A stretch of DNA of 37,704 nt, taken from contig JAUNGL010000013.1 in the NCBI GenBank assembly GCA_030524665.1, positions 1-37,704 on the forward strand. The letters run 5' to 3'. The notes beneath the pieces were generated by a model. That model was given only the letters and a program-made list of their open reading frames with translations. It was not told the origin of the DNA and ran no database searches. Made by a program: the position numbers and the translations under genes. Origin of the DNA: Lachnospiraceae bacterium. GTDB taxonomy: Bacteria > Bacillota > Clostridia > Lachnospirales > Lachnospiraceae. This document shows positions 22,503-26,359 of the stretch, piece after piece (position 1 is the stretch's first letter; each line of letters starts with the position of its first letter).

Positions 22503-23258
22503 ATGGGGATTGCTGAAGCAGTATGCCTGATACTTGGTGTACTGTGTTTGCTGTATTATCTGGCGATTCTGCTGTATTCCGGCATTACGACCGATTTTGC
22601 ATGGATTTGGGTCGCAGCCGGGATCTTTTTGTTAGGGATGGGACATTTCCTGAAATATGTCAGATGTCATCCCGGAGCGGTTCCTGTGTGGGTTCTATGG
22701 GGTGGTTCTGTGATACTTCTGATTGGTATTCTGGTATTTCTGTATCTGACAGGATGTGTGGTATCCGGTATGAGCCGGAAGGCGGAACCGGGCCTTGATT
22801 ATGTGATCGTGCTCGGCGCGCAGGTGAGAGGGGAAAGGCCATCGCGCGCGCTGCGCAAGCGTCTCGACCGTGCGGCAGAATATGCAAGGGAAAATCCGGA
22901 TACGGTACTGATTCTGTCCGGAGGGAAGGGCAGCGGCGAGGACATCTCGGAAGCCGAATGTATGTACCGTTATCTGACAGAGCAGGGAATTGATCCCAAA
23001 CGCCTGAAAAGGGAAGACCGTTCCACCAGCACGAAGGAAAATCTGGAATTTTGCCGGGAATTGTATCATCCGGAGAACTGCCGGACCGGGCTGGTGTCGA
23101 ACAACTTTCATATTTACCGGGCGCTTGCCCTTGCAAGGAAGAGCGGCTATACGCAGATTTACGGAATTCCGGCTTCTTCGGATATCGGAATGCAGCCGCA
23201 TAATGTTGTCAGGGAAGTATTTGCACTGGCTGTACTGAAGATTACAGGGAAGCTTTGA
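22503..23258 (+). CDS. YdcF family (DUF218/SanA/ElyC-like) membrane protein
   Basis: From the ATG at 22503 the product has 251 residues: three hydrophobic helices (about 4-24, 32-50, 61-84) and then a DUF218 domain. The domain shows DYVIVLGAQVRGERPSRALR, VLILSGGKGSGEDISEAECM, EDRSTSTKENLEFC and GLVSNNFHIYRALALARKSG, the conserved acidic, Ser/Thr-rich and NNFHxxRA stretches of the family. Members take part in envelope processes, such as ElyC in peptidoglycan precursor handling, but the reaction is not settled. A GTG at 22482 inside the SEC-C gene is an alternative start. The two genes are probably translationally coupled. Confidence 0.85.
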   Translation: MGIAEAVCLILGVLCLLYYLAILLYSGITTDFAWIWVAAGIFLLGMGHFLKYVRCHPGAVPVWVLWGGSVILLIGILVFLYLTGCVVSGMSRKAEPGLDYVIVLGAQVRGERPSRALRKRLDRAAEYARENPDTVLILSGGKGSGEDISEAECMYRYLTEQGIDPKRLKREDRSTSTKENLEFCRELYHPENCRTGLVSNNFHIYRALALARKSGYTQIYGIPASSDIGMQPHNVVREVFALAVLKITGKL

Positions 23259-23287
23259 GACTGTGTGAAAAAAGTGACAAAAAACTC

Positions 23288-23316
23288 TTGACGCATTCCT
23301 GATAATTTGCTATACT
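23288..23316 (+). promoter_or_regulatory. Strong promoter of the fhs leader
   Basis: TTGACG (23288-23293), 17-base spacer, TATACT (23311-23316) preceded by TGC. Transcription would start near 23323, about eight bases before the first aptamer, giving a leader of about 400 bases. Confidence 0.75.
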
Positions 23317-23330
23317 GACCATAGTTAAGC

Positions 23331-23408
23331 GGTTTTGATTGCTGACGGATTGATGTGGAGCACCACAGGGTAATCAAAATAATAATTTTGTCGACCGTCT
23401 GGACAGCA
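23331..23408 (+). ncRNA. ZTP riboswitch (pfl motif) aptamer upstream of fhs
   Basis: The order of parts matches the ZTP/pfl riboswitch. P1 is TTTTGATT (23333-23340) with AATCAAAA (23372-23379). Between them come the internal-loop stretch GCTGACGGAT, a hairpin TGTGG AGCA CCACA (23354-23367) and GGG. After an A/T-rich linker comes the conserved 3' element CGACCGTCTGGACAG (23392-23406). In the common form this is CCGCCTGGGCA; here the G-C pair of its small stem is replaced by T-A on both sides, a compensatory change. ZTP or ZMP binding normally prevents termination. Confidence 0.85.
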
Positions 23409-23436
23409 TTTGGGATTCAAGTGTTGTCCTTTTTTT
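23401..23436 (+). terminator. Terminator of the ZTP riboswitch
   Basis: GGACAGCATTTG (23401-23412) pairs with CAAGTGTTGTCC (23418-23429) over twelve pairs with two G-U, loop GGATT, followed by seven T (23430-23436). Its 5' arm takes the GGAC half of the aptamer's 3' hairpin, so aptamer and terminator exclude each other. Confidence 0.85.
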
Positions 23437-23522
23437 CGCTTATATATGGACGGCGGCAGTCTATTCATTATGGTTTTTACTGTTTTCTCAAAACAGCCAA
23501 TATAAAATTATTCTATTGTAAA

Positions 23523-23613
23523 GTAGAGAAGATACAGTACGTTAAGTGTCACACGATGGGAAGGTCTTTATGTGAACGAAGGAATCATTCCGCGTTACGG
23601 TATCGCTTCCGCT
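23523..23613 (+). ncRNA. THF riboswitch (tetrahydrofolate) aptamer upstream of fhs
   Basis: The stretch contains the conserved parts of the THF riboswitch in order: ACGTTAAGTGT (from 23539), GATGGGAAG, GTGAACGAAGG, CCGCGTTACGGTATCG and CTTCCGCT. A P1-like pairing is possible between GAAGATAC (23528-23535) and GTATCGCTTC (23600-23609) with a two-base bulge. The class was recognised by comparison from memory with the published Eubacterium siraeum aptamer. Folate binding normally lowers expression. Confidence 0.83.
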
Positions 23614-23657
23614 ACTGCGCTAAGGTGAATCCGTGGGTCTCTTTGCGCAGTTTTTTT
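23614..23657 (+). terminator. Terminator of the THF riboswitch
   Basis: ACTGCGC (23614-23620) pairs with GCGCAGT (23645-23651), followed by a run of seven T (23651-23657). It begins immediately after the THF aptamer and 68 bases before the fhs start codon, so the second aptamer also seems to act on transcription. Confidence 0.75.
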
Positions 23658-23724
23658 GCGCCCATCTGCAGGGAAAACGACGCATGATCAGACGGACAGC
23701 CGGAAAAAAGGAGGACTTTTTACT

Positions 23725-25410
23725 ATGGGATTCAAATCAGACATTGAAATTGCTCAGGAAACAGTGATGTCTCCGATTACGGAGATCGCAGCAAAAGCAG
23801 GTATTGATGCAAAATATCTGGAGCAGTACGGAAATTACAAGGCAAAGATCGATTACAATCTTCTGAAAGAGACAGATAAAAAGGATGGCAAGCTGGTCCT
23901 TGTAACTGCAATCAACCCGACCCCGGCAGGAGAAGGAAAGACGACGACAACCGTAGGTCTGGCAGATGGTCTTCAGAAGCTTGGCAAGAATGTAATGGTA
24001 GCACTCCGTGAGCCGTCCCTCGGACCGGTATTCGGTGTTAAGGGTGGAGCAGCAGGCGGTGGATACGCGCAGGTAGTTCCGATGGAGGACATCAACCTTC
24101 ACTTCACAGGTGACTTCCACGCAATCGGCGCAGCGAACAACCTCCTTGCAGCTATGATCGACAACCATATCTATCAGGGCAACGCACTGAACATCGACCC
24201 GCGCAAGATCACATGGAGAAGATGCGTGGATATGAATGACCGTCAGCTTCGTTTTGTAGTAGACGGCCTTGGCGGAAAGACCAACGGTATGCCGAGAGAG
24301 GATGGCTATGATATCACGGTTGCATCTGAGATCATGGCAGTTCTGTGTCTGGCAAGCGATATCACAGACCTGAAGAAGCGTCTCGCAAGAATTATTATTG
24401 GATATACATACGGAAAGGTATCCGAGCAGAAGCCGGTAACAGCAGGCGACCTGCACGCAGAAGGTGCTATGTGTGCACTTCTGAAGGATGCCCTGAAGCC
24501 GAACCTCGTACAGACACTGGAGCACGTACCGGCTATCGTACACGGCGGACCGTTCGCAAACATCGCTCACGGCTGCAACTCCGTGATCGCAACCAAGATG
24601 GCTCTGAAGCTTGGTGACTATGCAATCACAGAGGCTGGATTCGGTGCAGACCTCGGAGCTGAGAAGTTCCTCGACATCAAGTGCCGTATGGCAGGACTGA
24701 AGCCAAGTGCTGTTGTCATCGTAGCTACTGTCCGTGCTTTGAAGTACAACGGCGGTGTTGCAAAGGCAGACCTGAACAATGAGAACCTGGAAGCACTTGA
24801 GAAGGGTCTTCCGAACCTTCTGAAGCATGTAAGCAACATCAAGAATGTATACAAGCTGCCGTGCGTAGTTGCAATCAATGCATTCCCGACTGACACGAAG
24901 GCTGAGCTTGACCTCGTAGAGACCAAGTGTAAAGAGCTTGGCGTAAACGTAGCTCTGTCTGAAGTATGGGCAAAGGGCGGCGAAGGCGGAATCAAGCTTG
25001 CAGAGGAAGTAATCCGTCTCGTAGAAGAGCCGAACGACTTCACCTACAGCTATGAGCTGGAAGGAAGCATCGAGGACAAGCTGAATGCAATCGTACAGAA
25101 GATCTACGGCGGAAGCAAGGTAGTCCTGACTGCAAATGCTCAGAAGCAGGCGAAGGAGCTTGAGGCTATGGGATACGGCAACTGCCCGATCTGTGTGGCT
25201 AAGACACAGTACTCCCTGACAGACGACCAGACGAAGCTCGGAGCTCCGACCGGATTCGAAGTAACTGTACGCAACCTGAAGATTTCCGCAGGTGCAGGCT
25301 TCATCGTAGCCCTGACTGGTGAGATCATGACTATGCCTGGACTTCCGAAGGTACCGGCTGCAGAGCGTATCGATGTAGACGAGACAGGAAAGATTTCCGG
25401 CCTGTTCTAA
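23725..25410 (+). CDS. fhs: Formate-tetrahydrofolate ligase
   Basis: The 561-residue enzyme joins formate to tetrahydrofolate with ATP to give 10-formyl-THF, the entry to the methyl branch of the acetyl-CoA pathway and the source of formyl groups for purines. Marker stretches are [20 protein letters not shown] (nucleotide-binding loop, about 70-89), [34 protein letters not shown] and [19 protein letters not shown]. Length is typical. The ATG at 23725 follows AAAAGGAGG; the frame from 23656 begins in the riboswitch terminator and is rejected. Codon use is highly biased, as in strongly expressed genes. The leader carries ZTP and THF riboswitches. Confidence 0.98.
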
Positions 25411-25588: not shown

Positions 25589-26359
25589 ATGTTTAAAGAT
25601 GAGATGAATGGGGTATGTAATACCGCCAACGGAAAGCTGAGTTTATTATCAAAGAATCCGGCAGGATATTTTGTGATGTCGATGATGGCTGGACTTTATA
25701 TTGCACTTGGAAGTATTCTGATGGGAATTGTCGGCGGAGTATTTACCGGCGGCGGAGCGTACAGCACGAAGCTTGCCTGCGGTATTGTATTTTCCGTAGG
25801 GCTTTGCTTTGTGACAATGGCAGGTGCCGAGCTGTTCACCGGGAATAATTTTGTGATGGCAGTAGCAGGTATGAAGAAGACTGCTTCCTGGGGGAATATT
25901 ATAAAACTCTGGGTAGTCTGCTGGATCGGCAATCTGGTAGGTTCTGTGATTGCAGCAGGTATTTTTACGATGACAGGTATCCCGGCCAGCGGAGATATCG
26001 GAGCATTTTTCGGAACAACAGCAGCAAACAAGATGGCAGGTACGGCCCCGAATTTGTTTGCGAAGGCAATTCTCTGTAATATCTGTGTCTGTATCGCCAT
26101 CTGGTGCGGTGCAAAGCTGAAATCTGAGGGCGCGAAGATTGCCATGAATTTCTGCTGTGTGGCGACATTCGTTACCTGCGGCTTTGAGCACAGTATTGCG
26201 AACATGACCTTCTTGTCGATCGGTCTGATGAATCCGAACGGAATGGCTGTCAGCATGGCAGGCTTCTGGTACAATCTTCTGATCGTGACACTTGGAAATA
26301 TGGTTGGCGGTATTCTTTTTGTAGCAGTACCGTATTATCTGGTTTCAAAAGACAAATGA
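25589..26359 (+). CDS. Formate/nitrite transporter family channel (FocA-like)
   Basis: The 256-residue membrane protein has six hydrophobic segments and FNT-family stretches: FVMSMMAGLYIALGSILMGI, AGAELFTGNNFVM (the AELFTGN motif of the first half), VCWIGNLVGSVIAAGIF, NICVCIAIWCGAKLKSEGAK and GFEHSIANMTF (containing the pore His). It would move formate across the cytoplasmic membrane as a pentamer. Lying directly after fhs, it fits supply or release of formate for the same pathway. It has GGGAGGG before the ATG. A separate promoter was not found, and a hairpin lies between the two genes. Confidence 0.92.
   Translation: MFKDEMNGVCNTANGKLSLLSKNPAGYFVMSMMAGLYIALGSILMGIVGGVFTGGGAYSTKLACGIVFSVGLCFVTMAGAELFTGNNFVMAVAGMKKTASWGNIIKLWVVCWIGNLVGSVIAAGIFTMTGIPASGDIGAFFGTTAANKMAGTAPNLFAKAILCNICVCIAIWCGAKLKSEGAKIAMNFCCVATFVTCGFEHSIANMTFLSIGLMNPNGMAVSMAGFWYNLLIVTLGNMVGGILFVAVPYYLVSKDK

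Follow-up and report, generated by a model that had tools for sequence, protein, structure and literature searches.

In the window (the whole stretch of 37,704 nucleotides from a Lachnospiraceae bacterium analysed here), the gene for formate--tetrahydrofolate ligase, fhs, is preceded by a leader of about 400 bases in which Rfam models place a ZTP aptamer and then a THF-I aptamer, each with its own terminator. We consider that this leader is probably a two-step transcription gate in which both steps are ON, so that fhs would be expressed in response to ZTP AND folate. RNA polymerase would meet the ZTP aptamer first, and ZTP or ZMP, a sign of 10-formyl-THF shortage, would hold this aptamer and block the first terminator. 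The polymerase would then meet a THF-I aptamer of a subtype that is linked to fhs among the elements fetched; a folate, most likely unformylated THF, would hold the switch helix P1, the held P1 would prevent the 2-4 terminator pairs nearest to the second U tract from forming, and transcription would run into fhs. The formylating enzyme would then be expected while its substrate THF is available but 10-formyl-THF is short.

The cmscan search of the whole window against 4227 Rfam families at gathering thresholds returned two matches, ZMP-ZTP (RF01750) at 23328..23411 (+ strand, 56.4 bits, cut-off 39, E 1e-6) and THF (RF01831) at 23522..23616 (+ strand, 61.5 bits, cut-off 36, E 1e-11). A preliminary description of this DNA, made from the letters alone, had placed the two aptamers at 23331-23408 and 23523-23613 and had proposed a covariance search with these models; its positions were right to within 3 bases and both scores exceed the gathering cut-offs. 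Its order of ZTP, THF and fhs is likewise borne out by the cmscan coordinates together with the identity of the gene (23725..25410, + strand, 561 aa), which matches Pfam PF01268 (FTHFS, 906.8 bits) and NCBIfam NF010030 (PRK13505, 936.1 bits). The single upstream promoter that it had named, a sigma-70 type TTGACG-17-TATACT with TG before the second hexamer (23288..23316, + strand), is the sole site found by consensus scan in 23200-23760, though shuffles average 1.1 sites, so this alone proves nothing; by eye, a similar promoter stands 5′ of the ZTP aptamer in all 10 of the tandem fhs leaders with upstream sequence inspected, of 12 known. Downstream of fhs and on the same strand lies a formate/nitrite transporter gene (25589..26359, Pfam PF01226, 215.7 bits), a possible partner of fhs and candidate for co-transcription; its position 3′ of fhs fits a supply of formate to Fhs. 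The assembly of this genome (3.39 Mb, 242 contigs) is 82% complete, and the nearest named relatives of its Fhs are mostly from Lachnospiraceae and Blautia MAGs. Within this 82% complete assembly the Rfam search gave one THF match, that of the fhs leader, and one further ZTP aptamer (L080:579-658, G000:C58), which precedes an IMP cyclohydrolase-like gene. On the strand opposite to this second ZTP aptamer there is also a match to Clostridiales-1 sRNA (L080:1734-1883).

The first switch conforms to its class. Its terminator (23401..23436, + strand; stem 23401-23429, T7 23430-23436) has 13 pairs by consensus scan, which finds 1 terminator in 23200-23760 versus 0.5 in shuffles, and 12 pairs by folding, with -17.2 kcal/mol and none of 200 shuffles equally stable. 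According to the RF01750 alignment, the 3′ strand of the final aptamer helix lies within the 5′ arm of this terminator, and the stem begins at 23401, inside 23328-23411. Judged by sequence, this overlap is the usual ON arrangement, the sign that the preliminary description had given to the ZTP element. According to PMC13273304, a terminator that rearranges the 3′ part of the aptamer is common to ON-type ZTP (pfl) riboswitches, and the fhs leader shares it; the element in the window differs from the class only in having a THF partner downstream. fhs is itself named among the genes most often found behind pfl (ZTP) RNAs (PMC2864571).

The sign of the second switch turns on how its terminator is built. 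This terminator (23614..23657, + strand, located by folding and alignment) comprises a hairpin at 23614-23651, with a core of 23617-23620 paired with 23645-23648, and a T7 tract at 23651-23657; 23610-23655 folds with -14.6 kcal/mol, a stability equalled by 8 of 200 shuffles, and the hairpin is missing from the consensus scan because its loop exceeds the limit of 8. Both of the terminators noticed in the preliminary description were recovered. In the hairpin 23614-23620 pairs with 23645-23651, and the basal pairs (23614-23616 with 23649-23651) use the last three of the five bases in the 3′ strand of P1, which is formed by 23522-23526 and 23612-23616. Hairpins were identifiable for 12 of the 15 fhs-linked elements (11 tandem fhs leaders and L074, registers set by hand); in all 12 the 3′ arm of the terminator pairs with bases 4 and 5 of the P1 3′ strand, and in eight it also pairs with base 3. 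At least five U follow the second terminator in 10 of these 12, and the terminator arm covaries among fhs leaders (position 8 G-C, A-U or G-U; position 9 U-G, C-G or U-A). Since P1 and the 5′ arm of the terminator compete for these bases, ligand binding that stabilises P1 should block the second termination, which would make the THF step ON and, with both steps ON, the gate ZTP AND folate. We infer the direction, the ligand identity and the in-cell effect of this THF step. The serial gate of the preliminary description, which required high ZTP and low reduced folate, thus keeps its two inputs in series, but the low reduced folate is made doubtful by the same overlap.

Among the elements fetched, this overlap is mostly seen in the fhs-linked ones. 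In an automatic search, 10 of 14 fhs-linked elements had a U-run hairpin whose start lies 1-5 bases inside P1, versus 1 of 98 other THF elements, these 98 being those fetched, a sample of the existing elements; the sole case among them, L012, is a 152-nt fold. The same search found no P1-overlapping terminator in L215 and L216, two fhs copies with THF alone. The other 98 elements divide into 26 without a hairpin, 56 with hairpins only after P1, nine with hairpins only 11-15 bases inside the aptamer and seven with both, and 60 of their 69 U-run hairpins after P1 contain a Shine-Dalgarno-like motif close to a start codon. In these 98 THF-I elements (RF01831), which precede folT-type and other genes, the fold, the L3-J2/1 pseudoknot and P1 are those of the fhs type, but the U-run hairpins mostly lie after P1 over a Shine-Dalgarno-like motif and U42 is mostly kept (94 of 98), whereas in the fhs type position 42 is a purine and the intrinsic terminator draws on the 3′ strand of P1.

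Folding models were used to examine the direction of the THF step, with an energy bonus on P1 as an assumption standing in for the ligand. A bonus of -6 kcal/mol lowered the probability of the basal terminator pairs from 0.83-1.00 to 0.02-0.10 in all eight leaders run. Without ligand, the full terminator is favoured over the P1 state by 2.7-4.7 kcal/mol in eight of 11 leaders, and in the remaining three (L067, L069, L074), with basal pairs enforced, the balance tips to the P1 state by 0.9-2.2 kcal/mol. In a model blind to pseudoknot and ligand, P1 has a probability of 0.000-0.115 when the transcripts of the 11 leaders are complete; with the terminator 3′ arm not yet transcribed, the value is 0.00-0.25 in 10 leaders and 0.74 in one. 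The MFE fold of 23518-23655 is likewise without P1 (z-score -0.36; 0.57 for the aptamer alone, 23522-23616), and as the program cannot form pseudoknots, plain MFE is a poor guide to a THF aptamer. As a model result, the anatomy of the second terminator would be that of an ON switch. When P1 is enforced the terminator core still forms, mostly 2 or 4 bases off the U tract, so antitermination may be partial.

The opposite sign for the second step would give ZTP ON followed by THF OFF (A AND NOT B), with THF binding letting the second terminator form and sparing fhs when folate is plentiful. It is the reading in print (a 2022 review, PMC9481103), both for THF-I switches, which are held to be OFF, and for the tandem, and it would also be compatible with the coexistence of terminator core and P1 in the model. 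An OFF switch needs an antiterminator, and one could exist locally: before the 3′ arm is made, the terminator 5′ arm in the window and in L090 is predicted to pair with J2/1 at 0.86-1.00 over five bases. This candidate is, however, highly probable in only two of 11 leaders, and the basal terminator pairs share bases with P1 in 12 of 12 hairpins, and on balance we regard A AND NOT B as unlikely for fhs. At this stage many of the 11 leaders have portions of the terminator 5′ arm paired with upstream sequence. A conserved antiterminator was considered and rejected since the partners differ among these leaders. A short contact near J2/1 does recur (0.43-1.00 in the window, L064, L090, L067, L071, L072 and L074), its longer form being strong only in the window and L090. 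For the other THF elements, equilibrium folding predicts that opening P1 makes the Shine-Dalgarno more accessible in 12 of 92 and less accessible in none, with no clear change in 80, which agrees only weakly with OFF.

What the second aptamer of our proposed ON-ON gate would bind depends on a pocket that differs from that of the class. The fold itself is conserved. The L3 strand of the pseudoknot (23559..23563, + strand, GGAAG) pairs with the J2/1 strand (23606..23610, + strand, CUUCC), both strands coming from covariation analysis, and in 11 sequences 100% of the cells of these five pairs are paired, one pair being changed on both sides (A-U, G-U, G-C). For the fhs-type fold with its pseudoknot, 96.5% of cells are paired and 13 pair changes are double-sided versus 5.7 in shuffles, a lenient control as the sequences are related, and 1-4 in slid versions. 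A covariance model, R1, built from 11 fhs-type elements, scores the window aptamer, one of its own source sequences, at 106.6 bits; it gives 103-111 bits in five of 392 genomes of the order and at most 77 elsewhere, and although four of these five genomes had supplied R1 sequences, the fifth (G668, 104.6 bits) had not.

U7, U35 and U42 are reported to belong to the tetrad that makes up the regulatory pseudoknot site of THF-I (PMC9881143, PMC11477058); the ligand at this site is said to govern the stability of P1 (PMC11477058), and U25 and C53 are residues of the 3WJ ligand site (PMC9881143). At the place of U42, in the register set by alignment, the window has G (23564, the base after the L3 strand). 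A pattern count in alignment register, which tries the U form first, gives a purine at position 42 in all 15 fhs-linked elements (G in 10, A in five) and U in 94 of the 98 others; the four exceptions are L075, L076, L077 and L187, the last being U-like by eye. Position 7 is U in 11 fhs-linked elements, A in three (the window, L064 and L090) and C in L067, and of the other 98, 96 have U at this position and two have C. The pseudoknot-site tetrad of THF-I is therefore altered in fhs-linked elements at position 42, and in the window also at position 7 (A), and membership of RF01831 stands. The bases aligned to U25 and C53 of the 3WJ site are invariant in the 11 aligned fhs-type aptamers, their positions being set by alignment to the S. 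mutans sequence. On these base identities the fhs-linked THF aptamers appear as a subtype with an altered binding pocket, and since U42 belongs to the site reported to control P1, the effect of a ligand on P1 cannot be assumed.

Two further readings concern this pocket. Tentatively, the fhs-linked THF-I elements could form a variant riboswitch class, with a pocket that reads a different folate or pterin state and with OFF turned into ON through a P1-competing hairpin that became a terminator; together with ZTP it would form an AND gate on the charging of the folate pool. Telling free THF from formylated folates would be one example of such a changed reading. A second and rather improbable reading is that the element no longer senses THF, and either responds to another folate or pterin or acts as a constitutive attenuator, so that ZTP alone controls fhs. 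The purine at position 42 in 15 of 15 elements and the A or C at position 7 in four of 15 would fit this, as would a second terminator that is degenerate in three of 12 tandem fhs leaders (U4 in L064, no U run in L070, no hairpin in L068) and the existence of fhs leaders in which a ZTP motif stands without a THF motif (L087, L088, L091). Against it, pseudoknot and helices are conserved with the 13 double-sided changes (5.7 in shuffles), the U25 and C53 equivalents are invariant in the 11 aligned aptamers, and L074 has its THF element before fhs while the 3.3 kb retrieved contain no ZTP aptamer. In both L074 and L069 (genus g28) fhs comes with a THF element and, upstream, a tRNA gene, and L074 can be seen as a natural single-switch version.

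Leaders of fhs were also compared across related genomes, as had been proposed in the preliminary description. THF-I matches were found in 168 of 397 genomes of the family and ZTP matches in 184 (180 of them above the cut-off), in a scan with strict filters that may lose weak matches. We re-ran 58 of the 94 genomes with both classes, leaving out 36 whose single listed matches are not adjacent; in 11 of the 58 the two aptamers are neighbours, and ZTP precedes THF. Nine of these tandems precede fhs (the window, L064 and L067-L073) and two (L065, L066) precede an ECF transporter S gene, which scores 62.5 bits with the NCBIfam folate family in L065 (cut-off 60) and 51.1, under the cut-off, in L066. 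Among the best 80 Fhs loci listed, a regex applied to as much as 900 bases of upstream sequence detected the tandem in at least three (L084, L085, L090), with L084 and L090 confirmed by cmscan and L085 apparently on the same contig as L068 of G204, 5076 bases long in both cases. The order-wide R1 search added L227 of G668, where cmscan confirmed both aptamers, so that 12 distinct tandem fhs leaders were seen.

These leaders also bear on whether the two switches share one transcript. A second promoter between them would give two independent leaders and transcripts that see the THF switch only; in the window the spacer is 85 bases long and 68% AT, which would fit this. The consensus scan has no promoter there, and the distance from ZTP U tract to THF P1 is about 14 nt in L227 and 32 nt in L071, from which it follows that in these two the switches share one transcript. 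An internal promoter was rejected on these grounds, with no scan site and almost no room in L227 and L071, and we hold it to be highly improbable.

Related loci show other combinations. The genomes of tandem leaders L072 and L073 also carry a second fhs (L215, L216, seen in the DNA by eye) behind a THF element alone, in which position 42 is A. In L075 (694-786) and L076, both counted among the 98 other elements, a THF element with G at position 42 stands before another gene, and a distant fhs-like gene (about 42-43% identity) lies farther down. In L229, L230 and L237 the THF element is followed by a FolT-like gene and then fhs, with FolT family scores of 118.6 bits (L230) and 100.8 bits (L237) and assignment by resemblance in L229. 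Judging from these gene orders, the fhs-type THF element may have derived from a THF-folT-fhs operon that lost folT and acquired a U tract.

The preliminary description did not know whether this exact pair had been described for fhs. ZTP/THF-I arrangements before 10-formyl-THF genes are in fact already known: the 2022 review counts 10 such tandems and classes them as A AND NOT B, ZTP on and THF off, says that they were noted before 10-formyl-THF genes when the two classes were validated and that THF-I suppresses expression, and credits Kim 2015 and Ames 2010 (PMC9481103). These tandems and the window share aptamer classes, order, 10-formyl-THF gene setting and a serial two-input gate. The logic differs, A AND NOT B in the review versus the AND that we predict for fhs leaders, whose second terminator competes with P1. 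The L065 and L066 tandems before ECF-type genes appear to be translational and are closer to the published logic. Neither the likely ON sign with AND logic nor the altered pocket of the fhs type was found in searches of open-licence PMC papers, a set without the original tandem reports.

If the THF step is ON, the published tandem logic would be wrong for fhs. A single aptamer class would then act with either sign, depending only on which hairpin competes with P1, and the gate would sense a shortage of product jointly with the substrate. The altered pocket offers a handful of RNAs in which a change of ligand, if there was one, could be tested.
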